DNA from: an uncultured Lachnospiraceae bacterium | GTDB taxonomy: Bacteria > Bacillota > Clostridia > Lachnospirales > Lachnospiraceae | NCBI GenBank assembly: GCA_947385425.1 | Contig: CANDKY010000017.1 | Location: 1-45,402, forward strand | Reading direction: 5' to 3' | DNA: 45,402 nt | Shown: positions 7,894 to 24,637 of the stretch, piece after piece | How the letters are laid out: each line of letters opens with the position of its first letter | Numbering within the stretch: position 1 is the stretch's first letter | Notes under the pieces: model-generated | Database searches by the model: none | Told to the model about the DNA's origin: nothing | The model's input: only the letters and a program-made list of their open reading frames with translations | Position numbers and translations under genes: made by a program

Positions 7894-7911
7894 ATCGTAT
7901 CCTGCTTTCAC

Positions 7912-8796: not shown

Positions 8797-8802
8797 ATTA
8801 CT

Positions 8803-10026
8803 TTACTCCTTTCCAATATTCTTATCACATTTTTTCATTATTTCTAAATATTCCTTATATATAAATCCCGCATCCAATTTTACTGAAAAATGTGATTCTG
8901 CATAGTTCCTTGCTTTTTCTCCCATTTGCCCTAATAGTTCTGGATTATCTAACATAAAAACGATTTTACGTTTTAAATCCCGGATATCATTCCATTGATA
9001 CAATACCCCGTTCTCTTTTTCCATGACAATTTCCGGATTTGCTCCTGTATTTGATGCTATCACAGGCAGCCCTGCCATCATATACTCTGCCGTGACCCTG
9101 CCGAATGCTTCTGATTTTGAACACATAAAGCCACAGTCATAACGGCTTAAGCTACTTCCCATATCATTTCTGTAACCAAGAAGGTGTATGACTGATTCCA
9201 ACTTTAATTCTTTTATCATTCTATTCAACTTTCCGGTGTACGCCCTCGTCCCCCCGCCGATAATATCTATTGATAGTTTTGCCCTTTCCCTTTTTGTCAT
9301 CAATCTGCACGCCTGAATCACCTGGTACTGTCCCTTTGTTTCGCGCAGAGCGCCAAGCATAACAAATTTTATTTTTTTATCCCTTGCGTATTCCACTTTT
9401 TTCTTTGTATTTGTAACAACGCCATCATAAACCCTGCTAAACTTCCCTGCGTTTAGCCCCTTTTTTATCCAATGTCTCTGAACAATATCCGAGACTGCAA
9501 TAAATTTCCACGCCGATTCATTCATCAATTCTATATAGTTTCTTCTAAAGCTAAAACACTTGAAATCCTTGTCTCCAAATTCCCTTATATGCCATATCAA
9601 CGGCTTATTATATTTCAATGCCAGCATAGCCCCAAAATCTTCTCTCGAAGAATTTGAATGGATAATATCAATAGCCCCCATATCCATTTTCCTGCTTAAG
9701 CAAAATATCCCAAAACATCTTCCCAATAAATATTCCGTCCCTCTGATTATAAACTTAAAAGGCATTTTCCATTTTTCTTCCATAATACTTTGATAAAACG
9801 GTTCATACATTATCCGGTAAGTATGGCATCCCAACTGCCGGTAATAATCCGCCGCTTTAACTCTGGCAGGCAGTACAACACTGATCTCAACACCCTCACA
9901 ATATTCCAATAACCCGCTGATTAACTGCTTCATGGACTGTGATGCCCCATACTTACCATCCCCGTCAGAAATAAAAAGTATATGTATTTTCTGCTTTCTA
10001 CATTTTTTTCCAATATATCTTTTCAT
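8803..10026 (-). CDS. family 4 glycosyltransferase, operon 1
   Basis: 407 aa GT-B retaining glycosyltransferase. The N-terminal domain begins HILFISDGDGKYGASQSMK, whose GGAS-like loop is typical of GT4. The C-terminal domain has EAFGRVTAEYMMAGLPVIAS, the E-x7-E nucleotide-sugar motif. The gene overlaps the HAD gene by one base (TAATG), so the two are translationally coupled. It is closely paralogous to 23465-24637. It probably extends the lipid-linked repeat unit made by the phosphoglycosyl transferase at 11543. Confidence 0.92.
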   Translation of the reverse strand: MKRYIGKKCRKQKIHILFISDGDGKYGASQSMKQLISGLLEYCEGVEISVVLPARVKAADYYRQLGCHTYRIMYEPFYQSIMEEKWKMPFKFIIRGTEYLLGRCFGIFCLSRKMDMGAIDIIHSNSSREDFGAMLALKYNKPLIWHIREFGDKDFKCFSFRRNYIELMNESAWKFIAVSDIVQRHWIKKGLNAGKFSRVYDGVVTNTKKKVEYARDKKIKFVMLGALRETKGQYQVIQACRLMTKRERAKLSIDIIGGGTRAYTGKLNRMIKELKLESVIHLLGYRNDMGSSLSRYDCGFMCSKSEAFGRVTAEYMMAGLPVIASNTGANPEIVMEKENGVLYQWNDIRDLKRKIVFMLDNPELLGQMGEKARNYAESHFSVKLDAGFIYKEYLEIMKKCDKNIGKE

Positions 10027-10733
10027 TACCCCTGCTCCCCGCTAATCAGCAGTGCATAAATCCCCTTAAGCCGCGGAACTATATAATCACTTTTCACATT
10101 GTCGCCAATATGTAATATTCTTCCCTCAAAAAACAGATAATCTTTCCTGATTGCCTCATATAAATATCCGGTGGATTTACGCATATTACAGGAAGAAGAA
10201 AGATACAATTTCTCAAAATTTCTATATCCGCATCTATATAAAATCTGTTTTATTATCTTCTCATCCAGATACATATCAGAGGTAATTATAATCCTCTTCC
10301 CTCTCTTTAACGCCCTTTCATAAACCTCTTTCATCCGCGGGCTCGGACAGCAGACTGATAATTCCGCCTTTTCTTCTAATTCCAATAGTATTTTTTTATT
10401 ATTTTCCGAGACTCCGTCCATACAACGGAAAATATCCTTAAGGGTAATTTCACCGCTGCCTTTTCTTTTTCCTGCCTCCCTCTCTGCCTTTACCCTCTTT
10501 TCTTTATATCCGCATATATCAATTTCCGTCTGTCTAAGAAATTCCCGGTAAACCAGCCCGTGAATATCTTCCGGATTTTTCACCTTCCGCTTTACCAAAG
10601 TATCAAATATATCAAATGAAATAATTTCCGCCCGGCCGATTTCCCTTTCTATTTTATCTGTCTTAACTCCAAATATTTTCCCCAAAATGCATCTTATCTG
10701 CCTTTTTATCTTAACCCATGTCAGAACCTGCAT
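10026..10733 (-). CDS. HAD-family phosphatase, operon 1
   Basis: 235 aa. HAD motifs are visible: I at 41-45 (DIFDT, nucleophile and acid/base Asp), II at 151-152 (TS) and IV at 209-216 (IGDNVKSD). The helical cap lies between motifs I and II. It resembles the HAD proteins of polysaccharide clusters (COG5610-like). The gene overlaps the phosphoribosyltransferase gene by 23 bases and the same pair recurs in operon 2. That stable pairing suggests it removes the 5-phosphate left after phosphoribosyl transfer, as the phosphatase domain of Klebsiella ribofuranosyltransferases does. The specific substrate is inference. Confidence 0.82.
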   Translation of the reverse strand: MQVLTWVKIKRQIRCILGKIFGVKTDKIEREIGRAEIISFDIFDTLVKRKVKNPEDIHGLVYREFLRQTEIDICGYKEKRVKAEREAGKRKGSGEITLKDIFRCMDGVSENNKKILLELEEKAELSVCCPSPRMKEVYERALKRGKRIIITSDMYLDEKIIKQILYRCGYRNFEKLYLSSSCNMRKSTGYLYEAIRKDYLFFEGRILHIGDNVKSDYIVPRLKGIYALLISGEQG

Positions 10734-11391
10734 CTTTATTTTCCCTGCACTGCTTCCTTTCCTTTTGACCTATCCAAATCTCGTACTGCTTTAAAAACAT
10801 ATCATATTGAGGTGACTTCCGTGAAGTTGCCGTCAAAACAAGCATATTCCTATATCTGTAATAATCAACACTCACCCTCTTACGGCTATAGTCAATAACC
10901 GCATAACTGGCTGTCCTGACTACCGCGCTGGGAAAGTTTTTCCTGACAATTTTATATACACATTGCAATGTCAACCCGGTATCTACAGAATCATCAACAA
11001 TCAGTATTTTCTCATGCGGATTTCTGTTTTCTTCTTTATACCTTGCAGAAAGTTCCACATTCCGTTCCTCTTTTTTTTCATTAAACTTATACATCAAAGG
11101 CATTTTCAAAATTTTCATTACAACCTTCTCCGGTATAATCCCAATAACCGTTTTAAGCTTATCCTTTATCTCACTGGCAGGACGGCTCACAAGAATATCC
11201 GCCATTTCACAGCCAAAATATTCAGCTATCGGTTTCGCAAACAGGAACCCGCTTTTTGCTATAAAAACAACCAGATCCGGCTGATATGTCTTTTCAATTT
11301 CCACAGCCCAACTTTTGCAATCACTGATTATACTGTCCATAGACCGTCTGCTTGTCTCTATGTGTATGGCATTTTCCCCTGCTGTTTTCAT
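10711..11391 (-). CDS. phosphoribosyltransferase-domain protein, operon 1
   Basis: 226 aa type I phosphoribosyltransferase fold. The PRPP-binding loop is ILIVDDSVDTGLTL at 129-142, with two adjacent acidic residues and the DTGLT phosphate loop, and VVFIAKSGFLFA at 41-52 matches the PPi-loop strand. It is not a close match to any purine or pyrimidine salvage enzyme I recognise. In an exopolysaccharide operon and overlapping a HAD phosphatase gene, it is best read as transferring 5-phosphoribose from PRPP to a glycan. AAGGTGA lies five bases before the ATG, and the same start context is kept in the paralogue at 25497. Confidence 0.8.
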   Translation of the reverse strand: MKTAGENAIHIETSRRSMDSIISDCKSWAVEIEKTYQPDLVVFIAKSGFLFAKPIAEYFGCEMADILVSRPASEIKDKLKTVIGIIPEKVVMKILKMPLMYKFNEKKEERNVELSARYKEENRNPHEKILIVDDSVDTGLTLQCVYKIVRKNFPSAVVRTASYAVIDYSRKRVSVDYYRYRNMLVLTATSRKSPQYDMFLKQYEIWIGQKERKQCRENKDAGSDMG

Positions 11392-11542
11392 TCTATCACC
11401 TTAAACTCTCATCTGTTTCCTTCTTACATTACCGTATATAAAACCGTTTCATGCTCCCGCTTGGTATGATGCCTGACATACAGCCTGTATTCCGGCACTA
11501 AGCTATGAATATACCGCGCTATCCGTATCAAAATTATCATAA

Positions 11543-12229
11543 CTAATACGCCCCATCCCCCTGAAAAACCACCGGGATTGTCTTAAGGATCATTTTAACA
11601 TCCGTCAGCATCCCCATATCCTCTATGTACTTCAGATCCAGCTCCACCCATTCTTCCCATTTGATATCCGCCCTGCCGCTTATCTGCCAGTAACAGGTAA
11701 GCCCGGGCTTCACGATCAGCCTCTGCCTCTCATACTCGTTGCACTCTTCCATCTGGAAGGTCAGTATCGGTCTGGGGCCTACGATACTCATATCCCCTTT
11801 TAATATATTAATAAGCTGGGGCAGTTCGTCTATGCTGTACTTCCTTATAAACTTCCCCACCCGGGTAATCCTCGGATCGTCCTTGATCTTAAAGGCATGT
11901 CCCGACTGCTCGTTCTTTTTCACCATCTCTGCAAACTTTTTATCTGCCCCCTTATACATGCTGCGGAACTTGTACATGTCAAAAGGCTGCATATCCCTGC
12001 CCGCCCTGGGCTGGACGAAGAACACCGGCCCCCCATCCTCCAGCAGGATGGCAATGGCCGTAACCAGAAAGACAGGCGACAGGACAGCCAGCGCAAAAGA
12101 CGACGCCACAATGTCAAACAGGCGTTTCGATGCTTTATAAAGCGCAGGCTTCTCCGCATATAAATCCCTGTAGCCCATAATACTGTTCTTACGGAATATC
12201 CGTTCCACATCCCTGGTCAATGAATCCAT
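11543..12229 (-). CDS. phosphoglycosyl transferase (initiating sugar transferase), operon 1
   Basis: 228 aa. One hydrophobic re-entrant or membrane segment (about 38-64) is followed by the bacterial sugar transferase domain: MYKFRSM, DELPQLINILKGDMSIVGPRP split over 133-153, and KPGLTCYWQISGR. This is the minimal monotopic class (as PglC or the WbaP C-terminus), which moves phospho-sugar from a UDP-sugar to undecaprenyl phosphate and so starts repeat-unit synthesis. A good AAGGAG lies before the ATG. Unlike the five genes downstream it is GC-rich, whereas its paralogue at 26272 is AT-rich among GC-rich neighbours. Confidence 0.93.
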   Translation of the reverse strand: MDSLTRDVERIFRKNSIMGYRDLYAEKPALYKASKRLFDIVASSFALAVLSPVFLVTAIAILLEDGGPVFFVQPRAGRDMQPFDMYKFRSMYKGADKKFAEMVKKNEQSGHAFKIKDDPRITRVGKFIRKYSIDELPQLINILKGDMSIVGPRPILTFQMEECNEYERQRLIVKPGLTCYWQISGRADIKWEEWVELDLKYIEDMGMLTDVKMILKTIPVVFQGDGAY

Positions 12230-12647
12230 CTTTTCTTCTCCTTTTCCCCTCCGGGCGCATCCTTAAAATGTTTTCGCCATAACCTGTATTCTGCATCCCT
12301 CCGGAACCTGCAGGCCCTTTGCGGCCTTCCCAAATTATTATCTGAAACCCCGGCATTATCTGCTGCCTGCATTTCCGGATTCCCATATTTTCAACATTTT
12401 TCGCTTTTTCATCTTTACTTTTTCATTCTTCTTTATATCTTCCTGCCGCCCGCTTTTATGGTTCCCCATACTTTACGGGTTCCCCGTTCCCGGACGCACA
12501 GTCCCGGGATTTCTCCCGGCATTGCCGCCTGCCCGCCAGAGTTTTGGCGGTGCTTCCTTATCACGGAGCTCCCTCCGTTTCTGCCGCCTGCCGGGGTTTC
12601 AGGGACATAACCGGTTTTGTCCGCAGGCTTCTGTAATTTTAACCATT
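12230..12647. other. 418-base spacer, no gene seen
   Basis: I see no convincing coding region here; the open frames are proline- or arginine-rich and have no ribosome-binding sites. It is not obviously alignable to the equivalent spacer of operon 2 (26959-27253). It separates element A from the sugar transferase, and an internal promoter cannot be excluded. Confidence 0.4.
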
Positions 12648-12758
12648 TATGATTATTTGCGTTCTGCCGCCCCACGTTTCCACGGGGCGGCAGAACAACC
12701 ACATGTTGGGAATCAATATTAACGGGTTAACCCGCCGGTTCATCATGCATGATTAAAT
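12648..12758 (-). ncRNA. conserved structured element A, copy 1
   Basis: Begins about 36 bases after the SPKTG gene stop. Read in the operon direction it has a 12-bp palindrome ATCATGCATGAT (12742-12753), a second palindrome CGGGTTAACCCG (12723-12734), then a 36-base hairpin (12661-12696). The hairpin stem starts GTTCTGCCGCCCC and is capped by a GAAA tetraloop. A nearly identical element occurs at 27254-27370, where one base pair is lost and the loop is GTAA, still a GNRA loop. No T-run follows, so it is not a simple terminator. Its position inside an exopolysaccharide operon before the glycan genes recalls antitermination elements such as EAR; that role is inference. Confidence 0.6.
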
Positions 12759-12793
12759 ATTCTTTTCCAATATGACTTCCTTATCCCCCTCGG

Positions 12794-13861
12794 TTATTCC
12801 CCGGTCTTAGGGGAAACTGCAGGGTTCGAAGGCGCTGCCGGCACGCCTGTAACGGTAGGCGCTGCCCCTGTTTTGGCAAGGCTTGCAGACGCTGCTGCTT
12901 TCGCGGCGTCTTCCGCTTCCGCGGCTTCCTTATCCAGCAGACCGTAATCCGTCGATTTATCATAGTCATCGCTGCCGCCGTTGTCTTCCTGTACAGGTGT
13001 CTCCACTGCCGCCTTCTCCGCCTTAACGACAAATACCGGTGAGAAGGAATCGAACGTTGCTACAACAATGCCATCCGCAGTAACCTGCGCCGGGAGTGTC
13101 TCCCATCCCCTTGTTGAATGGTAATGGAGCACATAATATACATACCTGGAAGGATCCGGCTTTTCCGTTGCCATAGGTATCGTTACCTGTACGCTGCCGC
13201 CTGCCGCGTCAAGCTCTTCCTGCGGTATGCTGATATCCATGGACGCCGCGAACTCAATGTTTGCCTCTGTTTTCCCATCGGTTGTCTCTGTTGTCTTTAT
13301 GTTCAGCCCCAATGTGCCTGCCATTGCTTCCGCTGCCGCTTTTGCTACGGACTGGGCCGCCGCCGCTACCGGGGTAACCGTTATCGTCACATTTTTGTCA
13401 GCCTTTATTTCTTCCTTTTTCACGGCTTCAAACTGGGCCTGGGAATCCTTCCGGAGTTCTGCCTTCGTTTCCTCTGTTGCGGTTTCCTCAAATTTCTCTG
13501 CATCGACCTTTACTTCTTCTTTTACAGAGTCATCCAGCGTAACCTTTCCTGCAAGCGCCTTGTCCAGGACAGCCTGCTCCGCTTCGTTCTCCGCTTTCAC
13601 TGCGTTATTTTTGATATCCTCGATCGCGCTTGCGCCGATCTCGCCGTCAGCCGTTACCTCCGTATAAACTACATTCCCCGCTTCGTCAGTCCCCGTTTTG
13701 ATATCCTGGCCATCCTCCGTTTTTCCCTCTTCGATCGGCCCTACAACCGGGAAATCAGCAGATCCCGCACCGGGAGATGGGGCTGCGCTGACAGGTACAC
13801 CGGCCATAAGGGTTATTGCCATTCCAAGCGCCAGTGCACTATAAAGCTTTTTTCTTTTCAT
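12794..13861 (-). CDS. secreted SPKTG-ending surface protein, operon 1
   Basis: 355 aa with a clear Sec signal (MKRKKLYSALALG..., cleavage near VSA-A, about 26). The middle is Ala/Glu/Lys-rich; about residues 240-285 form a compact domain including YVLHYHSTRGWETLPA, shared with the paralogue at 27408. The last 60 residues (KSTDYGLLDKEAAEA... to the end) are the best conserved part and finish SPKTG-E at 350-355. SPKTG fits the (S/P)PxTG motif known for Clostridioides difficile sortase B, but no hydrophobic helix or basic tail follows. The sortase and LCP genes lie just upstream. AAGGAG precedes the ATG. Its function is not known; it may be the protein acceptor or carrier of the polymer. Confidence 0.8.
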   Translation of the reverse strand: MKRKKLYSALALGMAITLMAGVPVSAAPSPGAGSADFPVVGPIEEGKTEDGQDIKTGTDEAGNVVYTEVTADGEIGASAIEDIKNNAVKAENEAEQAVLDKALAGKVTLDDSVKEEVKVDAEKFEETATEETKAELRKDSQAQFEAVKKEEIKADKNVTITVTPVAAAAQSVAKAAAEAMAGTLGLNIKTTETTDGKTEANIEFAASMDISIPQEELDAAGGSVQVTIPMATEKPDPSRYVYYVLHYHSTRGWETLPAQVTADGIVVATFDSFSPVFVVKAEKAAVETPVQEDNGGSDDYDKSTDYGLLDKEAAEAEDAAKAAASASLAKTGAAPTVTGVPAAPSNPAVSPKTGE

Positions 13862-13979: not shown

Positions 13980-15056
13980 TCACTCCTCCGCTTCCTCATA
14001 AAACACATCCAGTATCAGTTCATAAAGGGCGGTTTCATTTACGTAAAATTCTTCATAAACCTCCCCCTGGACAGTCTCGCCTTCCAGTGAATACATATTC
14101 CCCTCATCAAAACGGTATCCCGATATCTGGGCTGCCAGGTAGCCTGCTTCATCTATCGAAATGTCCGTCACCATATACCGGCTTAACGTATTGTATAATG
14201 TCACAGGAAGCGTAATATCTTCTTTCAGGGCTTTTACAGCCGCAGCCGCATAGGCCGTCAGATATTGTTTCTGCCGTTCCAGCCGCGCGCCGGCACTGTT
14301 AAATTCCGCCGTATCCCTGTAATGCAGGTAATAATAGGCATCCATCCCTTCCAGGTGTACCGCTTCCCCCTTCTTTATATGAAAATTCCGGAAATCCATA
14401 TCCTCCAGCGCATCCACTTCCACCCCTCCCACAGCATCGTTAATGAGCGGGATTGCCCCCATATTAATGGAACAATAACCATGGATCGGCAGATTGTAAA
14501 ACAGTTTCGACACCGCATCCCGGCTGCGCTCACAACTCACGGCTGCCCCGTCCCCATAGCCATGCTGCAGGGTAATCTGCGCTGTGCCGGTGCCCTCGTA
14601 CTCCCCTTCTTTGCCGTACACCTCTATCTCAGCCATGGTATCCCTCGGGATGCCAATCACATTGATTTCCTTCGTATGCGGATCCAGCGCCAGGAGGAAT
14701 ATTGCATCCGACTGCCCGCCGTCCACGCCGTTTTTTGCCGGCGCCACTTCTGTCATTTTATCTATCCCCAGGAAAAGGAATGTCAGCATATCCTCATTGT
14801 ACTGGTAATGGATCCCCTGGTAACGGACATCTCCTTCCTTCCAGTCCCCGGGCTGTTCCATATCCTCCGCCGTTTCCGCCAGATCCGACTGGGACATAAT
14901 CATCTGACCGCCCCCGTACCCGCCGTAAAGCCGGTTCCTGCCCGATACCTGCACCGCCAGGAAAGTAACGGTACCAATGACGGCAAGTACCCCGAATACA
15001 ATAACCGCCCTTATTACAACACGTGCAATATGGTTTTTTCCCGGCCTAATTTTCAT
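13980..15056 (-). CDS. LytR-CpsA-Psr (LCP) glycan ligase, operon 1
   Basis: 358 aa. One N-terminal membrane helix (about 12-36) is followed by an extracytoplasmic LCP domain: FLFLGIDK, GGQSDAIFLL, IGIPRDT (with the conserved Arg), a QITLQHGYGDG segment and INMGAIPLINDAVGGV. LCP proteins transfer lipid-linked glycans to peptidoglycan, or in some Actinobacteria to proteins. The start overlaps the sortase stop by 11 bases, so the two are coupled. It would attach the polymer made by this operon; whether the acceptor is peptidoglycan or the SPKTG protein is open. Confidence 0.92.
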   Translation of the reverse strand: MKIRPGKNHIARVVIRAVIVFGVLAVIGTVTFLAVQVSGRNRLYGGYGGGQMIMSQSDLAETAEDMEQPGDWKEGDVRYQGIHYQYNEDMLTFLFLGIDKMTEVAPAKNGVDGGQSDAIFLLALDPHTKEINVIGIPRDTMAEIEVYGKEGEYEGTGTAQITLQHGYGDGAAVSCERSRDAVSKLFYNLPIHGYCSINMGAIPLINDAVGGVEVDALEDMDFRNFHIKKGEAVHLEGMDAYYYLHYRDTAEFNSAGARLERQKQYLTAYAAAAVKALKEDITLPVTLYNTLSRYMVTDISIDEAGYLAAQISGYRFDEGNMYSLEGETVQGEVYEEFYVNETALYELILDVFYEEAEE

Positions 15057-15921
15057 TCAGCAGCACCCCTTGTACCAGATAGCGCCTGTCCGGTTTATCC
15101 GCCATACATGTAGACAGGATCAGGATGTTATCATCCGTCGTCACTTCCACATCTTCCGCACGGTTGCAGTTCATGCCGCGCACGCCCGCCATTTTCTCCA
15201 AGATCCATCCAAACTCCTCTTCCCGCGTGTAATCCCGGCGGTACAGCAGGTGTTCATTGCCGTATTCCAGGGACGCAAAAACCCGGTATACCAAAAGCCT
15301 TTCCGGGGTGTAAACATATATGTACGGATGCCCGGCAAAATATTCGCTGTCCTCATACTTGTGCAGGCCCGCAAACATCGTCCCGTTCTTCATGTTATGC
15401 CCGTACATCACGGTAAGCGGATCCAGGAAATTCCTCCTGTTATAACTCTCCGTATAAATGCAGCCCGGATAACCGTAACTGCCGTCCAGGTTATGGTTCA
15501 GGTAATAATAATTATCAATGGGATGCTGGAGCACCGGGTAGTCAATCTTTGTGTCCGGGATATAAACCCATGCGTAAATATCGCCGTTCACATCCTCCTG
15601 CAGTTTTGCAAAATCCACTTCCTTTTCCGGTATCGGGACACCCATATCCGCAAGGGCCTGCAGTTCCTCCGGCAGCTCCGTCCCCGCCTCCTCCGGCTCT
15701 TCTTCCTCTTCCGTTTCCATGTCCGTGGCTTCCCCGCCGCCCCCGTCGCTGTCCTCCGCGGCAGCCTGCTGCTCCACGGCCTGCCTTTCCCCTTCCGCCG
15801 GCTGCCCTTCCCCTTTGCCGCCCCCGCATGCGGCCAGCCCTATAACTGCCGCCATCAAAAGCGCCGCCGCAGGAACCTTCCGCATCCAGCCGTCTATTTC
15901 CCCTGGGTTCCATCCCTTCAT
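15046..15921 (-). CDS. class B-like sortase with lipoprotein signal, operon 1
   Basis: 291 aa from the ATG at 15921, the start that aligns with the operon 2 copy. Residues 13-32 form a lipoprotein signal (RKVPAAALLMAAVIGLAAC) with LAAC lipobox and Cys32. An acidic linker (about 33-90) follows, then a sortase domain with His175 (GHNM), catalytic Cys272 (ILSTC) and Arg279/280. YAWVYIPDTKIDYPVLQ is typical of class B sortases. Most sortases are anchored by an uncleaved helix, so lipid anchoring is unusual; the second copy shares it. It is the first gene of operon 1. The likely substrate is the SPKTG protein two genes on. Confidence 0.88.
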   Translation of the reverse strand: MKGWNPGEIDGWMRKVPAAALLMAAVIGLAACGGGKGEGQPAEGERQAVEQQAAAEDSDGGGGEATDMETEEEEEPEEAGTELPEELQALADMGVPIPEKEVDFAKLQEDVNGDIYAWVYIPDTKIDYPVLQHPIDNYYYLNHNLDGSYGYPGCIYTESYNRRNFLDPLTVMYGHNMKNGTMFAGLHKYEDSEYFAGHPYIYVYTPERLLVYRVFASLEYGNEHLLYRRDYTREEEFGWILEKMAGVRGMNCNRAEDVEVTTDDNILILSTCMADKPDRRYLVQGVLLNEN

Positions 15922-15964
15922 ATATAAAACAACCTTCTTTCTGTCTTCTTCTATTCTCTCCTGC

Positions 15965-16054
15965 CGTTTTCCCATAATGCCCGGGAGCCGGATTTTCGTC
16001 TCGAACCGGTAAAAAGCCATTACATGCGTTTTCCCATAATGCCGGGAGCCGGAT
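15965..16054. repeat. pair of 28/29-base direct repeats in the sortase leader
   Basis: CGTTTTCCCATAATGCC followed by GGGAGCCGGAT occurs at 15965-15993 and, one base shorter, at 16027-16054. The pair lies between the left inverted repeat and the sortase start. It contributes to a leader of about 250 bases in operon 1, against about 50 bases in operon 2. Confidence 0.7.
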
Positions 16055-16175
16055 GTATACCCGGGCTGTAAGAAACTTATAAACAATTTCTTGCGCACTA
16101 TCCTTTTTGATGCAAAACCCCTCCCTTACAGCAAAACCGTTTATTTACAGCCTGTACGCAAGCCGACATTTTCCT

Positions 16176-16200
16176 TCGTAAAATATCCAATTCTACGAAA
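16176..16200 (+). repeat. left inverted repeat of invertible promoter 1
   Basis: 25 bases: TTCGTA, a 13-base core containing ATATCCAAT, then TACGAA. It matches the reverse complement of 16540-16564 at 23 of 25 positions. The site is itself nearly symmetric (arms of about 11 bases around TCC), as expected for a site-specific recombinase core. Confidence 0.85.
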
Positions 16201-16264
16201 ATTCGACATACGGATCCCGCAAAGCACCATAAATACGGCTTTCCCGGCATCCCGCGTCCGCCCC

Positions 16265-16374
16265 TGACGGCAATTTTGACGGCCTAAAATCCCGTTTCAC
16301 GAAAATAATCCGCCCGGAAAAGCAAGCTTTTGCACGCCTATGCAGGCCCCTTCCCCTGACGGTAATTTTGACGG
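16265..16374 (+). promoter_or_regulatory. two TGACGG direct-repeat pairs, segment 1
   Basis: TGACGG occurs at 16265 and 16277, and again at 16357 and 16369. Each pair has a 12-base period (about one helical turn) and is followed by CCTAAAA; the pairs are 92 bases apart. The same arrangement and distances recur in segment 2. Both pairs lie upstream of the -35 box, so an activator that binds direct repeats, such as an OmpR/PhoB-type regulator, is plausible. Confidence 0.6.
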
Positions 16375-16456
16375 CCTAAAACATAATTTCACACGAAAAC
16401 ATACCACATACTCTTGTAACCCGGTTCCGATACTCAAAAAAAGTGGAAAAATAGAG

Positions 16457-16485
16457 TTGATTTTTAGGAAAAACTGTGATAACAT
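16457..16485 (+). promoter_or_regulatory. promoter inside invertible segment 1
   Basis: TTGATT at 16457-16462, 17 bases, TAACAT at 16480-16485, with TG one base before the -10 (extended -10). The sequence around it is almost identical in segment 2. It points right, away from operon 1, in this assembly. Confidence 0.7.
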
Positions 16486-16539
16486 GAACAGGACATCGTA
16501 AATGAATGGTTTTTAACGGAAAAAATGTCAAATATTGGT

Positions 16540-16564
16540 TTCGTATAATTGGATATTCTACGAA
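16540..16564 (-). repeat. right inverted repeat of invertible promoter 1
   Basis: TTCGTA, a core containing ATTGGATAT, then TACGAA; the inverted partner of 16176-16200 with two mismatches. Confidence 0.85.
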
Positions 16565-16778: not shown

Positions 16779-17909
16779 ATGGCAGAAAAGAAAACTTACG
16801 AGGAACTGGAAAAACGCATCCGCGAACTCGAAGCCGCGCTGAAAGGGAAAGGGAACCGCGGATACAAATCACGGCTGTTCAGCTTCCTTTTCGGCAGGGA
16901 GGAAAACAAAAAATGGACGCTGTCCCTCTACAACGCCATCCACGGTACTTCCCACAACAATATTTCCGACATTACCATCAACACCCTGGAGGATGTCGTG
17001 TATATGGGCATGAAAAACGACCTTTCCATCCTCGTGTCGGAAACGGTAAGTCTCTACCGCTCCGTGGAACTGTACGAACAGCAGAGCTCCTTCAACCCCA
17101 ACATGCCCGTCCGGGAATTCATGTATGCCGGGAAGCTTTATGACAACTTCCTCTACTCGGGCAGGCTCAACCGCTACAGCACAGCCCTGCTTCCGCTCCC
17201 CATCCCGAAGTTCGTCGTCTTCTATAACGGCGGGGATCCAAAAGAGGAAGAAATTACCCTGCGCCTTTCCGACGCATTCAAAGAAGAGATCCGGCGCAGC
17301 CTGCTCCACAAATACTCTGCATGCAACGAAAAAATAGGGGACGGCATAATATCCGCTGAAACGGAAGAAATTTTCCGCAGGGCAGACCCGGATATCGAAG
17401 TAAAAGTCCGCATGATCAACATAAACTACGGGCATAACAGGAAAATCCTCACCGCATGCAGGCCCCTGGAGGAATACGCATGGTTCATAGACCGGGTCAG
17501 GAAAAACAATACCTACAGCAAAACAGACACACCGGGCGGCAGGGCCACGGTTGAGGATGCCATTGACAGGGCCATCAACGAGATGCCTGATACTTTTGAG
17601 ATCAAAAAATTCATACTTGCCAACAGGGCGGAGGTGAAAGATATGTGCCTTACGGAATACAATGAAACGGAAACCATGGAACTGCTGAAGCAGGAAAGTA
17701 AAGAAGAAGGACGACAGGAAGGGCTTCAGAAAGGACGGCAGGAAGGACTTCAGAAAGGACTTCAGAAAGGACGGCAGGAAACCATGCTGCTGTCTGTCCG
17801 GAACCTGATGGACAGCATAGGATGCCCGGCGGAAAAAGCCATGGATCTGCTCAGGATCCCTAACTCCCAGCGGGCTTCCCTTTTTACACTCCTGTCAGAA
17901 AATCAGTAA
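16779..17909 (+). CDS. Rpn-family PD-(D/E)XK nuclease / putative transposase
   Basis: 376 aa. A short coiled coil (about 5-22) is followed by a PD-(D/E)XK-like core with KND (D81) and VELYEQQSSFNPNMP, where E100-x-Q102 is the usual E-x-Q variant, then REFMYAGKLYDNFL. Residues about 315-340 are a QEGLQKGR repeat encoded by near-identical DNA repeats, followed by a helical tail (AEKAMDLLRIP), both typical of Rpn/PDDEXK_2 proteins. Family members promote recA-independent recombination in E. coli; no terminal inverted repeats mark this gene as a discrete transposon. AAGGAGA precedes the ATG. It is the only plus-strand gene between the two operons. Confidence 0.82.
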   Translation: MAEKKTYEELEKRIRELEAALKGKGNRGYKSRLFSFLFGREENKKWTLSLYNAIHGTSHNNISDITINTLEDVVYMGMKNDLSILVSETVSLYRSVELYEQQSSFNPNMPVREFMYAGKLYDNFLYSGRLNRYSTALLPLPIPKFVVFYNGGDPKEEEITLRLSDAFKEEIRRSLLHKYSACNEKIGDGIISAETEEIFRRADPDIEVKVRMININYGHNRKILTACRPLEEYAWFIDRVRKNNTYSKTDTPGGRATVEDAIDRAINEMPDTFEIKKFILANRAEVKDMCLTEYNETETMELLKQESKEEGRQEGLQKGRQEGLQKGLQKGRQETMLLSVRNLMDSIGCPAEKAMDLLRIPNSQRASLFTLLSENQ

Positions 17910-17972: not shown

Positions 17973-19769
17973 TTATACCACCAGAAATGACCTTGGCTTC
18001 CTTTTCTCATTCCCGCCCCAATACAGGCAACGCCTGTTTTCCTCGTCCCGCGCCGGAGTCTTCCCAAAAACGGCTTCCTTCTTTTCCTGAACACCAGAAT
18101 AAACGGCTTGTCCCCTGCGACCATTAACCGTCACCAAATATACAGAACAGGTTTCCATATCAAATTTCCATTCCGCATATTCTGCGCCAACGCTTTCCTT
18201 TACCGCCTGCAGCCGACTGTCAATATCATTATAAGAATTATCAATATACAGTAAAAAGGAAGACGCCCCCACATCATCCAGCGCACTGCCGATATTTCCA
18301 ATTCCGCTTTCCTCTATTGGGTACACCTCCTGCCCGTTTAGAAAATAAAATGCCGTACAGCACGAAACATATCTCCTGTTGCCATACGTAAGTAAAATAA
18401 CCGGCAAATCGGAATAATAATCGGCAATTTCCAGCTTTTGCCCCGTCTCCTCATACAGGTATCCAACCCCAACCGTAAAATAACCATATACAGTCAAAGC
18501 AAGTATTACCGCCACACAGCCTGCCTTTATACCCTTCCCCCCGGATACCCATCTGCACAGGACATCCCCGGCCACTGCCAATTCCAAAACGGCAATTGCA
18601 TATATATTAAAAATATACCTGTCAGTCTGGTATGGCGCAATTTTCGCAATTACTGCGATATACAGCATCCCTGCCAATAAGATGAAAAACCATATCCAAA
18701 AGCGTGCATTGCCCGCCCTTCCGGAAACAGCAAAAGGAACCGCACGACTTTCGTCCGTCAAGTTTTTAACCCGGAATGCATGAATAAAAACGCCACGCAA
18801 AAATAATACTGCCATACCGGCTAAAATCAGTAATAACCCTCCCCCAAACATTTCTTTATCCAATATCCCGAGAAAACGCATTAAACTACCCGCATCAAAA
18901 CTTTTGCCCATATTCCCAAATGCTTCCACTCCTCGGTAATCCCTGAAAATCTGTCTGTATATAACCGGCCAGACAAAGATACAGGCCGACAGGCCGGACA
19001 CCATCACTGCCGTATACGCAATAACCGCACGCATCCTCTTTAATAACATAAGGAACAGCCACGTACAGCCAGCCAGGAAGAAAGCAAACACCAGGAAATA
19101 ATACTGCGTCAAAACACCGAATACCAGCGCCAGGAAAATCCCGGCCAATACCCGTTTCCTTACCTTCCCGTCCCGCATTCCGCCCTCGATAAACAGGGCG
19201 TGCCGATAAACAAACCAAAGCGTAAAGCAGGCCAACTGCATATACATACGGCCAAATACCGCCGTTGTAACAGCGCCCGCGCCAAACCCCCACAGCAGGC
19301 AGGGAAGCATCCGTGCTGGCCAGGTTTTCAGGAGCTTCCCACTTATTCTGTATAAAATAATGTATGACAGGATGAAAAAAACAATATTAAGTATAATTAC
19401 CGGCCACTTTGTAAAACTAGGGAAAAAGGAACATACAGCCATCAATAACATATAATATAACGGCGGGTGCACATCCTCCTTTATACTGCGGTAAACTCCA
19501 ATAAAACTAAAGCGCTCCTCCTCCGAAACCGTGAAATAATCCTTAAAATACCCGGATGAATGCCAGTTATTCAGATATTCTTTTTCCGGGCGATCCTCAT
19601 GAATGGACGGGTAATCCGTCTGGCAAATGAACTGGTAAGAATAAAGTTCATCCCCAAAATACCCTTCCTTACGGGAAGCCCAATACAGGATATTCGCTAT
19701 CTGGGCAAAAAGGACAAGAAAAAAGACAACCTTTTCCGCCTTCCATGCAATCCTTACTTCTTCAGCCAA
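17973..19769 (-). CDS. GT-C membrane glycosyltransferase (family 39-like), operon 2
   Basis: About 598 aa from a TTG at 19769, which has GGGAGG eight bases upstream; an upstream ATG would overlap the flippase gene by more than 150 bases and is unlikely. There are some 10-12 membrane segments. GYFGDELYSYQF after the first helix carries the acidic pair used as catalytic and metal site in GT-C enzymes, and DVHPPLYYMLL fits the next conserved loop of ArnT/PMT-like proteins. Such enzymes use polyprenyl-phosphate sugars outside the membrane. It is the last gene of operon 2 and has no counterpart in operon 1, so it may add a side sugar to polymer 2 only. Confidence 0.78.
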   Translation of the reverse strand: MAEEVRIAWKAEKVVFFLVLFAQIANILYWASRKEGYFGDELYSYQFICQTDYPSIHEDRPEKEYLNNWHSSGYFKDYFTVSEEERFSFIGVYRSIKEDVHPPLYYMLLMAVCSFFPSFTKWPVIILNIVFFILSYIILYRISGKLLKTWPARMLPCLLWGFGAGAVTTAVFGRMYMQLACFTLWFVYRHALFIEGGMRDGKVRKRVLAGIFLALVFGVLTQYYFLVFAFFLAGCTWLFLMLLKRMRAVIAYTAVMVSGLSACIFVWPVIYRQIFRDYRGVEAFGNMGKSFDAGSLMRFLGILDKEMFGGGLLLILAGMAVLFLRGVFIHAFRVKNLTDESRAVPFAVSGRAGNARFWIWFFILLAGMLYIAVIAKIAPYQTDRYIFNIYAIAVLELAVAGDVLCRWVSGGKGIKAGCVAVILALTVYGYFTVGVGYLYEETGQKLEIADYYSDLPVILLTYGNRRYVSCCTAFYFLNGQEVYPIEESGIGNIGSALDDVGASSFLLYIDNSYNDIDSRLQAVKESVGAEYAEWKFDMETCSVYLVTVNGRRGQAVYSGVQEKKEAVFGKTPARDEENRRCLYWGGNEKRKPRSFLVV

Positions 19770-21280
19770 TTCCCCATCCTCCCTACAGCCTGCCGAAATA
19801 TATCTGTTTTTCGGTAAACCACCACATACCCTGCATTCGGCAAAATCACACAGACAGCAAACCGCACCAACAATATGCCCAACACACTGCCGCACGGGAC
19901 CAGCAGGCAAATATTATATGCCAGCACGCATAAAAACAACGTAACCAAAGCATATTTTATGTGATACCGGTAATATTCCTTTAACCTTGACAATTGGAAA
20001 TAATATTTAAAAGTTATCCTTATCCCCCAGAAAAAATTACACATGAATATAGTAATATTGGTTGCAATAATAATCCCATATACGCCAAAAAATTTCCCTA
20101 ATATAAGGTTCAAGGCAAAATTGGCTGCCGTCTCCATTAACGATACATACCTCCTGTGCCACCACAGGCCATTGACGCCGGAATAAATAGATGCCATATC
20201 GCCGGTACACAGCAAATAAAAATACAGACATAAAAGACCCACTGCCGGCAGGGGAAACATCATCCTTTTCCCCATCCATAATTCCATAAACGGCTGCACT
20301 AAACAGAAAAGGCAGATCGTACACCAGCCGGATATCCACATATAGATAAAATTCAGCAAATTCAGTTCTTCAAAATTTTCTTCCACCGTCCTTTTCACTA
20401 CATGATTCCCCACGCCGCCGAAGAAAGAAGCCGTAATAACCGAAAGCATTACACTAATGGCATGCATAACATAATAATAGTTATTATAAACAGCCGTCAC
20501 TGCCAGCCCCGAAAACATGGAAATAAAGATACTGTCAAACGCATTCCTGGATACGGCACAGACCTTGCTTAAAAAAGCACCGCCGACACGCTGCCAGATA
20601 TCCTTTATCAGGCTTGCCGGCAGGATCCCCCTGCACCGGTACTGCGGGAACATCTTCCTTACCATATATGCGATACGCAAATTATTTACAATAGTAAATA
20701 CAGGCATCATCAGGGTAAACAGATAATAATCCCGGAATGCATAAAGCATCACAATCTGCGAGCTATTCAACAGCAAAGTAACCGTCATATTTATGCTGCT
20801 GTTAATATCCTCACGCTGGTATACAACAAGCAGCGACGACATATAGGCATACATAAAGTAACTGACGGAAGCGTTAAAAAGATAAATCAAGTATAAAAGA
20901 ACAAGATCCAGCCCCTCCGGATACGTCCCGCTAATCAGATGCGGCAGGAAAGGTATCAGCGCCAAACCGGCTACCAGGATAACTATCCCGATACAGCGGT
21001 ACACCTTTTTATAAAAATTCAGTAATGCACATACCGTCTCCGTGTCATTCTCCGCAACAGGCCGGTACATATGATAAACAACCGCCGTCCCAAACCCAAG
21101 TTCCGAAAGGCTTAATATGGAAATGACAGAAGAAAACAAACTGTCCAGGCCTAAATATTCCGCACCCAGAGTATACTGAATAATAGTCCGGGTTACAAAA
21201 GGGCAAAGTATAAGTGCCAGCTTATTAGCAATCCCGGCTATGATGTTCCTTTTGGCATTTTTCATTACGTCCAGATTCAT
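19754..21280 (-). CDS. Wzx-like oligosaccharide flippase, operon 2
   Basis: 508 aa multi-pass transporter, the same length as and closely similar to 4168-5694 (both start MNLDVMKNAKRNII). It exports the lipid-linked repeat unit of polymer 2. It is 17 bases downstream of the polymerase gene, as in operon 1 where TupA intervenes, and overlaps the GT-C gene start by 16 bases. It is GC-richer than its paralogue. Confidence 0.88.
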   Translation of the reverse strand: MNLDVMKNAKRNIIAGIANKLALILCPFVTRTIIQYTLGAEYLGLDSLFSSVISILSLSELGFGTAVVYHMYRPVAENDTETVCALLNFYKKVYRCIGIVILVAGLALIPFLPHLISGTYPEGLDLVLLYLIYLFNASVSYFMYAYMSSLLVVYQREDINSSINMTVTLLLNSSQIVMLYAFRDYYLFTLMMPVFTIVNNLRIAYMVRKMFPQYRCRGILPASLIKDIWQRVGGAFLSKVCAVSRNAFDSIFISMFSGLAVTAVYNNYYYVMHAISVMLSVITASFFGGVGNHVVKRTVEENFEELNLLNFIYMWISGWCTICLFCLVQPFMELWMGKRMMFPLPAVGLLCLYFYLLCTGDMASIYSGVNGLWWHRRYVSLMETAANFALNLILGKFFGVYGIIIATNITIFMCNFFWGIRITFKYYFQLSRLKEYYRYHIKYALVTLFLCVLAYNICLLVPCGSVLGILLVRFAVCVILPNAGYVVVYRKTDIFRQAVGRMGNWLKK

Positions 21281-21297
21281 ATATCCGCACCCATAAC

Positions 21298-22446
21298 TTA
21301 CTCAGGATTTCCCCTTTTCCTGTAAAGCAAATCTGCAAAAAAAATCAAAAATACATTCTGACCTAATGTATACATCCCTGCTTCCATAATTCCATATACC
21401 GAAAACAAAAACAAGATAAATAAAAGGACATACCTCTTTTGCACAGCCATATATTTCATCAGCCACAAATAGCCAACAGAAAAAATCAGGAATACAAGCA
21501 CACCCTGCCTTAACAAAATGCTCATATATGCATTATCAAGCCACAGCTTTTCTGCAATCCCTGCCAATTTCCTCTCTTCATCCGACACATATATTTTCCG
21601 CCCCAAAAAAGAAATCCCATACATCGTCAGGACTCTATGTCCACATGAAAATCTGCACGTCATCCACTGATCAATCTTTGCTAAAACAGAATTTGCCATG
21701 ACATCCATAAATGATAAAATGATACTGAATATATTTACGGCAAACGCTCCCGCCAACATACCTTTTGCATACAATACCATTCTGCCGGGACATAACCTTC
21801 CAATACATTTATAAAACAGCAATAAGGCCATGAATAATAGTAAGCAAATACACACTGTCTGGGAATTAGGAATTTTATATACAAAGACAACAGCCAGGAC
21901 AGCAAAAAGATAATCCCATGCCCTGATCTGTCTTCTATGCAAATAAAAACGGCATATTATTAACTGCAAAACCCTCACACCTAATGTGTTTGGATGGGCA
22001 AAACCTAATGAAAATCGCTGTATGTCCCTCATAAACAGTGTATTATCCTCAAGCAATCCGAAAAAGCGCATGGCTATTACTGCCGGAACCAATATCAGCA
22101 GAATTTTATATGCGATACCTATTATCCTGTCCGGATCCTCATTTTTAGCGGCTACAATAAACATCCACGCAGACAGCAACGGCCTGTTCCCGGATAAGAA
22201 AGCCGCCAAAGCAACCGGAACCGTAATCCCTGCTATAAGGAATATTTCCCGCCTGGTATATGACGGTAATAATGACAATGTCTGTATGATAAGCAACAGA
22301 AAAACCAGCCAGTTCAACAGGCTGTTTACTGTACCTACCGGTAAATCCAGGAATGATTTTAAAGTTGTGCTGAAAATTATTTCTGTACTGTACCACAAGA
22401 TAAAAATAAAACAGAAAAAATTTTTTGCAATATATTTCTTAACCAT
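21298..22446 (-). CDS. Wzy-like O-antigen polymerase, operon 2
   Basis: 382 aa from the ATG at 22446, which matches the start of the operon 1 protein; a GTG at 22482 is possible. It is a multi-pass protein with GFAHPNTLG and PNSQTVCICLL as in the paralogue, and a long extracytoplasmic loop ending WLDNAYMSILLRQG. It would polymerise repeat unit 2. Unlike in operon 1, no ATP-grasp gene lies between polymerase and flippase. Divergence between the two polymerases is greater than between the flippases, as expected if the repeat units differ. Confidence 0.82.
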   Translation of the reverse strand: MVKKYIAKNFFCFIFILWYSTEIIFSTTLKSFLDLPVGTVNSLLNWLVFLLLIIQTLSLLPSYTRREIFLIAGITVPVALAAFLSGNRPLLSAWMFIVAAKNEDPDRIIGIAYKILLILVPAVIAMRFFGLLEDNTLFMRDIQRFSLGFAHPNTLGVRVLQLIICRFYLHRRQIRAWDYLFAVLAVVFVYKIPNSQTVCICLLLFMALLLFYKCIGRLCPGRMVLYAKGMLAGAFAVNIFSIILSFMDVMANSVLAKIDQWMTCRFSCGHRVLTMYGISFLGRKIYVSDEERKLAGIAEKLWLDNAYMSILLRQGVLVFLIFSVGYLWLMKYMAVQKRYVLLFILFLFSVYGIMEAGMYTLGQNVFLIFFADLLYRKRGNPE

Positions 22447-22507
22447 ATTTATACCTGTACTTCCCTCTCCGGAGCCGCTCACAGCCCCCGCATCTTTCCA
22501 AAAATCT

Positions 22508-23380
22508 TCATTTCATTCTCTGCAGCACGACATATCCCTTTGCATTTTTTTCCCATCCCACATTAATCGAAAGCAAAAGAAACTTAACAACCACTTTTGC
22601 CCCGAAACTATATTTAAATGCAAGCCGGCATAATTCTTTCCGGATTTCTTTATTATTCTGCAGCCTGGCATCCTTCAGCAGCAGGTTTGCCAGATGATCG
22701 GACATTTTATGGTATTTCCCGGTGATATCCGGATGCATCTCCAATAAAAGCCTGCAGGCCTGTAACAGCTTTGCCGGCGATGTACTGATCCCACTGTCGC
22801 TGCAGGAATAATCAACCAATACTTCATCCAGATAATATATCGAATACTTTTCACGGATCCGGAATAAAATTTCAAAATCCTGTAATCTCGGTAATTTCTC
22901 ATTAAACTGCATTTCTTTAAAAACGGAAGCTTTGCCGGCTATAACCGGTGTCCCTATTCTAATTACATTTTTCTCTTTATTAATAAACCCTTTCCTGTAA
23001 GGCAATTTCTCCCCAGCCTCACAGCCTTGTTTCCGCATATTGCAAAAAGTAACATCCGCACCGGTATCTTCCATTATATTAAGCTGCTTCCTTAATTTCT
23101 CCCTATGCCATATATCACCGCAGTCCTGGAATGCTATATAACTGCCCTTCGACACCTTAATCCCGGTATTCCTGGCGGCACATGCCCCGCGGTTGGCAGT
23201 ATGCCTTATGTACTTTACCCTGCCGTCCGGAATCCGCCGTACAATTTCTTCCGTATTATCGGAAGAGCCGTCATCCACAACAATTACTTCTATGTCCGGA
23301 TAAGTCTGGCCCAAAACGCTGTCAACAGATTTCTGAATAGCTGACGCCCTGTTATATGTTGGGATAATAACTGAAACCAT
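22508..23380 (-). CDS. family 2 glycosyltransferase with altered DXD, operon 2
   Basis: 290 aa paralogue of 7912-8796. PTYNRAS, DDGSSDNT (36-43) and GACAARN are intact. At 86-89 the metal-binding DSDD of the operon 1 enzyme is DCGD, from a two-codon change. The middle Asp of DXD normally binds the catalytic metal, so this enzyme may be impaired, use Asp89 instead, or have changed specificity. The reading frame is otherwise intact, so it is not scored as a pseudogene. The ribosome-binding site is AGGAG with about nine bases of spacing. Confidence 0.88.
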   Translation of the reverse strand: MVSVIIPTYNRASAIQKSVDSVLGQTYPDIEVIVVDDGSSDNTEEIVRRIPDGRVKYIRHTANRGACAARNTGIKVSKGSYIAFQDCGDIWHREKLRKQLNIMEDTGADVTFCNMRKQGCEAGEKLPYRKGFINKEKNVIRIGTPVIAGKASVFKEMQFNEKLPRLQDFEILFRIREKYSIYYLDEVLVDYSCSDSGISTSPAKLLQACRLLLEMHPDITGKYHKMSDHLANLLLKDARLQNNKEIRKELCRLAFKYSFGAKVVVKFLLLSINVGWEKNAKGYVVLQRMK

Positions 23381-23464
23381 AATTCCTTTACTCCTCGCCT
23401 GGAATCCCCATGCCCCGCATACACGGTATCACTAATAATTGAAATAGGGGCAGGCAGGCTTCCC

Positions 23465-24637
23465 TTACAGCCCCTTGCCGCTGCGCCCCTTCATTATTTC
23501 CATATATTCCCTGTATATAAGTTCCGCATTTAATTTTACCGTATAGTGCGATAACGCATGCTCCCTCGCCTTTTTTCCCATCTGCTCCAGCAGATACGGA
23601 TGATCCAGCAGCCAGGCAATCTTTTCTTTTAAGTCCAAAACATTCCCGCACTGGTACAGTAACCCGTTTCCATTCCCAAAAACCAGTTCCCTGTTTGTCG
23701 GGATATCGGACGCTATGACCGGCAGCCCTGCCATCATGTATTCCGCGGTAACCCTCCCAAACCCCTCCGTCAGGGAACACATAATCCCACAGTCATACTT
23801 CCTTATATTCTTCCCAAAATCATTTTGGTACCCCAGGAAGCGTACCGATGGCGAAAGCCCGTATTCCTTAACCATCCTAGCTAATGTCTCCCTGTATGCC
23901 CCATTACACCCGCCGACAAAATCCATCCAGACTTTCTTTTTCTGTTCTTCCTTCAATAACCCCAGAGCCCGGATAACCTGATCCTGCCCTTTGGCCTGCG
24001 ATATCCGCCCAACCATCAGGAACCTGATTTTCCTGTCCGCATCCCTTAAGTATTTCTTTTTATGGCCTTCTTCCGCCACGCCGTCATAAATTTTATGTAT
24101 CCGCTTCCCATCCAGCCCCTTTCCCGCCCAATGGGATTTCACGGCGTCCGAAACCGCGATAAACTCTGCCGCCGCCCTGTTCATCAGTTTTATAGAACCC
24201 TTCCGGTAACTGTAACAGCCATCCCCCATTTCCCTTATATGCCATACCAGCGGCTTGTTATATTTCAATGCCAGCATGGCCCCCAAGTCTTCCCGCGAAG
24301 AATTGGAATGGATAATGTCTACCGTGCCCATGTCCATTTTCCTGCACAGACTGGGAACCCCGCAGCACCGCCCCACTAAATATTCCGTCCCCCTGATGAT
24401 AAACTTAAAGGGCATTTTCCACTTCTCTTCCATAATGCTCTGGCAGAACGGCTCATACATTACCCGGTAAGTGCGGCAGCCCAGTTCCCGGTAATAACCC
24501 GCTGTCCTGACCCTGGCGGGCAGCACGACGCTAATCTCTATATCCCCGCAATATTCCAGCAGCCCGCCGATTAACTGCTTCATGGACTGCGATGCCCCAT
24601 ATTTGCCGTCCCCGTCAGAAATAAATAATACATGCAT
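23465..24637 (-). CDS. family 4 glycosyltransferase, operon 2
   Basis: 390 aa from the ATG at 24637, preceded by GGGAGG, giving MHVLFISDGDGKYGASQS directly; the longer frame upstream has no homology to the operon 1 copy. The GT-B domains and the E-x7-E segment (TEGFGRVTAEYMMAGLPV) match the GT4 family. It is closely similar to 8803-10026. The gap of 153 bases to the HAD gene, absent in operon 1, holds nothing recognisable. Confidence 0.92.
   Translation of the reverse strand: MHVLFISDGDGKYGASQSMKQLIGGLLEYCGDIEISVVLPARVRTAGYYRELGCRTYRVMYEPFCQSIMEEKWKMPFKFIIRGTEYLVGRCCGVPSLCRKMDMGTVDIIHSNSSREDLGAMLALKYNKPLVWHIREMGDGCYSYRKGSIKLMNRAAAEFIAVSDAVKSHWAGKGLDGKRIHKIYDGVAEEGHKKKYLRDADRKIRFLMVGRISQAKGQDQVIRALGLLKEEQKKKVWMDFVGGCNGAYRETLARMVKEYGLSPSVRFLGYQNDFGKNIRKYDCGIMCSLTEGFGRVTAEYMMAGLPVIASDIPTNRELVFGNGNGLLYQCGNVLDLKEKIAWLLDHPYLLEQMGKKAREHALSHYTVKLNAELIYREYMEIMKGRSGKGL

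Follow-up and report, generated by a model that had tools for sequence, protein, structure and literature searches.

The 45,402-nucleotide stretch analyzed here (the window, contig CANDKY010000017.1 of assembly GCA_947385425.1, referred to as contig C17 of genome G000) comes from an uncultured Lachnospiraceae bacterium and contains two copies of one arrangement of inverted sites and a promoter. Each copy stands ahead of one of two paralogous operons that comprise a sortase, a LytR-CpsA-Psr (LCP) glycopolymer transferase and glycan genes. At the first copy, hereafter switch 1, the best pairing of the inverted sites is 16175-16199 versus 16540-16564, with 23 of 25 positions matching (or 92% complementarity over 26 nt). 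The original prediction, which had placed an invertible promoter with 25-bp inverted sites ahead of operon 1, was correct on these sites except for the left one, which starts at 16175 instead of 16176. This left, operon-side site (TTCGTAAAATATCCAATTCTACGAA, + strand) is made up of inverted 10-bp half-sites around the asymmetric 5-bp centre ATCCA, an organization expected of a tyrosine recombinase core, and the right, distal site (- strand) is its inverted copy with the same centre, the 2 differences out of 25 both lying outside it. The sites frame a segment (segment 1, 16200-16539, 340 bp) that, as had been claimed, holds no credible gene, its sole wholly internal open reading frame of at least 60 codons having 62. 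The second copy, switch 2, went unmentioned in the original prediction and adjoins the second sortase-LCP-glycan operon. Its operon-side site (30693-30717, + strand) has the centre ACCCT, its distal site (31060-31084, - strand) is the inverted partner, and its segment (30693-31084) shares 79% DNA identity with that of switch 1. Only two inverted pairs located 100-1000 bp apart in the window reach a score of at least 17, those of switch 2 (score 25; 30692-31085) and of switch 1 (score 20), as compared with 2 pairs in total at this threshold and 0 at score 20 in 200 Markov shuffles; the sites of switch 1 are beyond chance expectation. The site pattern TTCGTANAATNNNNNATTNTACGAA is matched four times in the window (0.02 expected), and these four places, all within the two pairs, are the only perfect ones in the whole 4.42-Mb genome, where a single mismatch is seen at one additional place (C26:29040) and three mismatches at three others. 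The centres are identical within each pair and different between the switches. Since the left sites of both switches share the same direction, cross-recombination between the switches would delete operon 2, a loss that the different centres would be predicted to hinder.

The extended -10 promoter announced within segment 1 is found at 16457-16485 (TTGATT-17-TAACAT, extended -10 TGA, + strand). A generic promoter scan did not list it because its 8 out of 12 matches fall below the scan threshold of 9. Its direction, towards the distal site and away from operon 1, had gone unmentioned in the original prediction. Likewise, the switch 2 promoter (TTGATT-17-TAGCAT, with an extended -10; 30975-31003, + strand) points away from operon 2. 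As the operons lie to the left on the - strand and the promoters on the + strand, both promoters face away as assembled, and both switches look OFF. Judging from the coordinates, a flip of segment 1 would put the -10 at ~16254, ~330 bp before the sortase start. The operon strand shows neither an extended -10 nor a TTG/TANNNT pattern in the switch-to-sortase gaps (15900-16174 and 30630-30692). It does carry an extended -10-like TGGTATGTT within segment 1, at 16406 (-), devoid of a matching -35; no counterpart of this element was found in segment 2. Alignment by eye of the distal ends of six segments (the two of the window, G001, G002, G003:C3, and G013:C41) identifies the + strand promoter in 6/6, always facing outward. 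This conservation is evidence for a functional promoter, yet its one-sided direction needs explaining: a bias towards OFF, selection acting in the sources sampled, or a loss of function could underlie it. Together, the sequence and its conservation across genomes support a promoter that would serve the operon in one orientation only, the TGGTATGTT element on the operon strand of segment 1 leaving some doubt.

The site pattern was then scanned in 116 genomes with up to 2 mismatches, the reversed pattern serving as control. Matches occur in 29/116 genomes versus 24/116 for the control; single matches mean little since the control is nearly as frequent, and follow-up was restricted to site pairs and to matches beside exopolysaccharide (EPS)-like genes, the genes being named by eye. 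Five of the 15 other genomes in the genus (G001, G002, G003, G013, and G015) have homologous segments ahead of EPS-like operons, and in each of these five at least one segment carries a recombinase gene, of the tyrosine and not the serine type. In G001 and G002, a site pair ~1.6 kb apart surrounds the gene of a 373-residue tyrosine recombinase. The short contigs G003:C144 and G013:C41 make visible the recombinase and one site, and G015 possesses the recombinase with a more diverged site. The segment of G003:C3 (475 bp) is devoid of a recombinase gene. So is the miniature segment of G044, from another genus, where sites 320 bp apart precede a large surface-protein-like gene. The sites around the recombinase homologues are inverted, which predicts inversion.

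The original prediction had called for a comparison with other strains to find the opposite orientation, and it is in the homologous segment of G015 that this orientation appears. Searching the genus with the 338-bp segment returns copies in 1/16 genomes, both being the window's own, and there is therefore no same-species flipped allele to compare. In the G015 scaffold (locus L128), a 1501-bp segment is present twice, inverted and 100% identical (5839-7339 and 7540-9040). The copies are separated by exactly 200 N, and the gap starts and ends at the inverted repeat. In the copy beside the LCP-sortase operon, the promoter TTGATT-17-TACTCT points into the operon, and in the other copy it points away. 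The simplest reading is that one segment was assembled in both of its orientations, although a genuine inverted duplication may account for the scaffold instead. Independent but weaker support for inversion comes from two related cassettes on viral contigs (L251 and L260), which have opposite orientations relative to a common flank with a helix-turn-helix (HTH) gene, the homology starting inside the L260 core site. A second site was not found in L251, and only one flank adjoining the cassette is common to both.

The window contig itself contains none of the 9 PF00589 matches of the genome, and none of its 25 PF00239 matches, which are not tied to sites either and of which four lie in open frames of 206-217 residues, the size of invertases. 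At E 1e-50, the only member of the cassette recombinase family in the genome is encoded at G000:C29:20666-21778. This C29 recombinase gene is an open frame with PF00589 and PF14659 matches over cut-off, and residues R205, H313, R316, H339, and Y349, which we take to be the catalytic R-H-R-H-Y set, are invariant in 15 aligned recombinases. In a tree computed without L104, L148, and L164, it is sister to the G015 cassette enzyme (99/96) within a clade of seven rows of the same genus (100/99), to which the recombinases of the G001, G002, G003:C144, and G013:C41 segments also belong. The C29 protein and its relatives comprise a core-binding and a catalytic domain, preceded by an N-terminal domain of three strands and one helix. 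The core-binding and catalytic domains are closest to Tn1549 Int according to sequence profile and Foldseek analyses, while VIA-align ties Tn1549 Int with XerA. For the N-terminal domain, a sequence-profile link to Tn916 Int was not found; structure comparison was therefore used, and reveals a resemblance to the Tn916 Int N-terminal domain. By phylogeny, the C29 recombinase would be the best candidate enzyme for both switches. No inverted repeat was found in the surroundings of its gene, and action in trans is therefore proposed.

Each window segment further contains two pairs of TGACGG direct repeats with a 12-bp spacing, absent from the original prediction, that we propose as arm pairs. In switch 1, the operon-side pair (TGACGG-N6-TGACGGC, 16265-16283, + strand) is 66 bp from its site and the promoter-side pair (16357-16375, + strand), oriented alike, lies 165 bp away from the distal one. 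In switch 2, the operon-side pair (30783-30801, + strand) is again 66 bp from its site, and the promoter-side pair (30875-30893, + strand) 167 bp from the distal one. With up to 2 mismatches the motif returns fewer matches genome-wide than its reversed control (281 versus 384), and the exact TGACGG-N6-TGACGGC matches were used, which number five: the four window pairs and one in a coding frame. The miniature segment of G044 carries arm-like pairs of another sequence (TGACCCC), resembling those of G044's own recombinase cassette.

A prediction was fixed before counting: arm pairs accompany recombinases with the extra N-terminal domain and are missing otherwise. The motif, first set as TGAC-N8-TGAC, was widened to GAC-N9-GAC after G015 had been inspected, and the domain was scored with a hidden Markov model built from 13 of the same proteins. 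The count covers 55 loci, 29 of a first set and 26 fetched after the motif was fixed, including L164 with a broken frame and L148 starting in contig-end sequence. Left out beforehand were L104 (the second G015 copy) and four loci that the first set already contained (L142, L150, L158, and L163); two matches of the first search and those of the second search beyond its 30 loci also lie outside the count. Among genes with the domain, 34/43 are flanked on the 5' or 3' side by an arm pair oriented as predicted, versus 0/12 of those without it (Fisher p 6.7e-7, a value that is not that of independent trials because the sequences are related). The association is 33/41 versus 0/10 upon removal of the 4 truncated loci, 21/26 versus 0/3 in the first 29 loci, and 13/17 versus 0/9 in the 26 post-motif loci. 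Upstream of the domain-bearing genes, the pair is present in 32/43 flanks as compared with 0.56 expected from shuffles, and never in the opposite orientation; downstream, it is present in 16/43 versus 0.71 expected, with one case in the opposite orientation. The spacing of 12 stands out upstream (32, any other spacing from 6 to 20 reaching at most 2) and less sharply downstream (16 at period 12 versus up to 4 at others). Inverted pairs of score at least 14 flank 29/43 loci with the domain and 7/12 without it. The arm motif is missing in 9/43 domain-bearing loci, among them L081 of the C29 clade. The tree includes 10 domain-less recombinases, of which 5 group in a single clade and the others are interspersed among domain-bearing ones with varying support (L157 by L090, 100/88; L153 by L146, 97/61; L101 by L156, 88/60).

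The geometry is recurrent as well. The core site lies at a median of 168 bp from the 5'-side pair (n=25, range 76-258; 165 and 167 in the window) and of 45.5 bp from the other-side pair (n=12, range 38-146; 66 and 66 in the window). When the window arm-pair sequences are compared with those of 34 segments, C29-clade segments take 4 of the top 5 places, the first place being tied with L152. Arm and N-terminal domain sequences show a weak correlation (Mantel rho 0.175, n=32, 14/2000 permutations as high). On this comparative association and geometry, we read the TGACGG pairs as integrase arm-type sites. Upstream of the C29 recombinase gene, one degenerate arm pair is detected with the widened motif and not with the narrower one, which is no more than suggestive of a remnant.

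We consider it very probable that the window segments are two phase-variation switches, arm-site invertible promoters derived from self-inverting cassettes and flipped in trans by the C29 recombinase. The ancestor would have been a self-inverting cassette arranged as core site, arm pair, recombinase gene, arm pair, promoter, and core site. The window switches would be its deletion derivatives, the recombinase-bearing form persisting in other genomes of the genus. The core-binding and catalytic domains of the recombinase would bind the core sites and its N-terminal domain the 12-bp repeats, and strand exchange between the two sites would invert the promoter. With the promoter directed outward through the distal site, the operon would be unserved (OFF); once flipped, it would drive the sortase, LCP, and glycan genes (ON). 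The enzyme encoded at G000:C29:20666-21778 would act on both switches, which their centres, ATCCA versus ACCCT, would allow to flip independently, protecting operon 2 from deletion. Inversion in the window, the identity of the enzyme, expression of the operons, and independence of the switches are what we infer. As for the original prediction of a single invertible promoter, it is supported by the recurrence of sites and promoter, the recombinase in homologous segments, and the two orientations in G015, and is amended in that the assembled state would be OFF, two switches are present, the likely recombinase gene lies on contig C29, and the segments bear putative arm-type sites. Several points weigh against two such switches served by the C29 enzyme. 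Phylogeny is the sole basis on which the enzyme is assigned, the window segments are seen in one orientation each with no further copy in the assembly, and the promoter points outward in 6/6 aligned segments and also in the G044 miniature.

The flipping enzyme might instead be another recombinase of the genome, of either the tyrosine or the serine type, with no role for the C29 protein, which we hold as doubtful. The 9 PF00589 and 25 PF00239 matches, with their four frames of invertase size, provide candidates, and the C29 gene resides on a separate contig with no sites around it. However, it is recombinases of the C29 clade that lie inside the G001, G002, G003:C144, and G013:C41 segments, and it is to this clade that the window arm pairs rank nearest, L152 being tied first. 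An unlikely explanation is a frozen relic, a once-inverting segment now fixed outward with its operons silent or on other promoters. The shared outward orientation, the lack of a recombinase gene in the window segments, and the TGGTATGTT element, which could serve operon 1 unflipped, all fit a relic. In contrast, identical centres, near-perfect half-sites, both arm pairs, and the promoter have been kept in both copies, an open recombinase gene with its catalytic residues persists in the genome, both orientations occur in the G015 scaffold, and the gap between switch and sortase offers no promoter pattern on the operon strand. That the TGACGG pairs instead bind a regulator of transcription or an enhancer protein of recombination is improbable. 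Hin-type inversion does employ an accessory enhancer (PMC3798978), and in the cassettes pairs are found near the recombinase gene start. Yet the pairs are present at both ends, also in gene-less segments, with fixed orientation and spacing, they are missing at all 12 recombinases without the N-terminal domain, some of them interspersed in the tree, and they correlate, if weakly, with the domain sequence. Lastly, chance inverted repeats or terminator-like palindromes without recombination are very hard to believe: every site is itself near-palindromic and a lone similar palindrome at C26:29040 has no visible partner or arm motif, but two pairs occur in one window versus none of score 20 in 200 shuffles, their centres match within pairs, and such pairs recur in other genomes.

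Retaining the reading as two arm-site switches flipped in trans, we can compare them with known systems. The Bacteroides capsule promoters (the Mpi system, with a serine invertase, and the Tsr system) likewise consist of a short promoter segment between inverted repeats before a surface-polysaccharide operon; several such loci exist per genome, and they are OFF when the promoter faces away. Here, the genome is a Lachnospiraceae one, the candidate enzyme differs in being a tyrosine recombinase of integrase-like type that bears an N-terminal domain, and putative arm sites lie inside the segment. Clostridioides difficile RecV acts on several switches in trans and, to our knowledge, has no arm-binding domain. 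The opening lines of RecV abstracts describe one recombinase and reversible inversion upstream of surface-related genes (flagella, CwpV), and mention no arm-type pairs. Elements of the IntTn916 type (Tn916, Tn1549) have paired repeats inside the element, as here; unlike theirs, the sites of the window are inverted, and inversion rather than excision would be expected. According to the sections consulted of a study on clostridial invertons (PMC11892184), group 139, linked to invertase group 35, lies nearly always near a tyrosine-type recombinase, and two of its members change orientation over culture passages. There, the enzyme is linked by proximity and not in trans from a distant locus, and the main text contains no word beginning with 'arm'. 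In the portion consulted of PMC8138268, tyrosine recombinases are split into simple ones and those bearing an arm-binding domain, this domain is taken as a strong predictor of phage or integrative and conjugative element (ICE) mobility, and the shufflon recombinase Rci is devoid of it. Arm sites inside an invertible promoter are undescribed in the titles and abstract openings of the literature found on the topic. Invertible surface-polysaccharide promoters are already well known, while the integrase-type form with arm sites and action in trans appears new as far as the literature was searched.

A broader proposal, on which our judgment is evenly divided, is that of a widespread clostridial class of phase switches originating from integrases. 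Self-inverting cassettes with phage-like arm sites would occur in Lachnospiraceae-like genomes, in other families of the order, and on some viral contigs, enzyme-less deletion copies would be flipped in trans, and the unequal arm distances (~165 bp towards the promoter versus ~45-66 bp opposite) might enable the enzyme or a partner to favor one state of the switch, accounting for the OFF state of most assembled copies. If the switches of the window work as proposed, the surface glycans of a little-studied lineage would be phase-variable through two independently set switches. The arm-binding domain would also mark genes that flip promoters in place, whose annotation as phage or ICE integrases may in many cases be mistaken. 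From sequence alone, the arm-site rule would then find switches, including recombinase-less ones, and assign them an enzyme located elsewhere in the genome.

Operon 1 extends on the - strand from the sortase to the contig start. Its first gene (15046-15921) encodes a class B-like sortase, with PF04203 over cut-off and the class B model just below cut-off. It is accompanied by the LCP transferase (13980-15056, family match), a secreted-looking protein ending in SPKTGE (12794-13861, no family match), and glycan genes (155-12229) coding for a bacterial sugar transferase, a phosphoribosyltransferase, a HAD protein, glycosyltransferases, a TupA-like ATP-grasp protein, an MBOAT acyltransferase, and membrane proteins without family match. 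This gene content suggests a cell-wall-linked glycan or capsule as the operon product. Operon 2 (17973-30677, - strand) resembles it by eye, comprising a sortase, an LCP protein, an SPKTGE protein, a sugar transferase, and glycan genes; a family scan, covering 17973-19910 only, found no match. Between the two, the switch 1 promoter as assembled faces an Rpn/PD-(D/E)XK-like gene (16779-17909, + strand), whose matches are below the curated cut-off. The nearest sortases are located on named contigs of Lachnospiraceae bacterium UBA11962 and uncultured Acetatifactor. Nine of 12 loci of the nearest sortase relatives were inspected: one (L065, the contig of G013:C41) has two upstream arm pairs of the expected form, L068, L070, and L072 have isolated arm-motif matches and no site-type inverted pair, and the remaining five have no arm motif upstream, L066 offering only ~170 bp there. 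With arm pairs at 1/9 loci, not every such operon is therefore seen to be switchable.

Several minor features were recorded in the operons. The secreted-looking proteins at 12794-13861 (-) and 27408-28646 (-) both end exactly in SNPAVSPKTGE followed by the stop, a sortase-like motif at the extreme C-terminus without membrane segment or charged tail; short proteins at the corresponding place in G001, G002, G003, and G015 have a different ending. A block common to both operons (12229-12797 and 26958-27410), between the secreted-protein and sugar transferase genes, contains a strong hairpin, given in operon 1 by GCCGCCCCGTGG...ACGTGGGGCGGC, that lacks a T run and might serve for processing or attenuation. 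The region separating switch 1 from the sortase gene, the prospective leader of the ON transcript, contains a repeat GTTTTCCCATAATGCC(C)GGGAGCCGGAT at ~15969-15993 and ~16030-16053.

Elsewhere in the genome, contig C26 carries the lone site-like palindrome TTCGTAGAATTTAACTTTCTACGAA (G000:C26:29040-29064, L007) beside a gene for a secreted-looking protein. A housekeeping Xer/dif site was considered for it and rejected: every 2-kb stretch of C26 but the first (0.004) has a negative GC skew, and inspection of relatives by eye shows no such conserved lone site. The same contig exhibits a perfect inverted repeat of 75 bp whose arms are 123 bp apart (4603-4875, L050); it may be the end of a mobile element or a non-coding element that was duplicated. 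Among IMG/VR contigs classed as viral, L169, L170, L173, and L175 possess recombinase cassettes that combine a pair of inverted sites with one or more arm-like pairs, and L171 and L172 a site pair without arm motif. Cassettes in three genera (L133, L136, and L060, from G004, G119, and G028) precede similar genes, a recurrent target whose proteins contain VHQY...YPGYT.QNEMT. Lastly, L055 (8566-9867, G110:C41) contains a cassette recombinase without the N-terminal domain, bounded by perfect sites and located before genes that by eye are PqqD-like and radical-SAM-like, possibly a phase-variable peptide-modification cluster.
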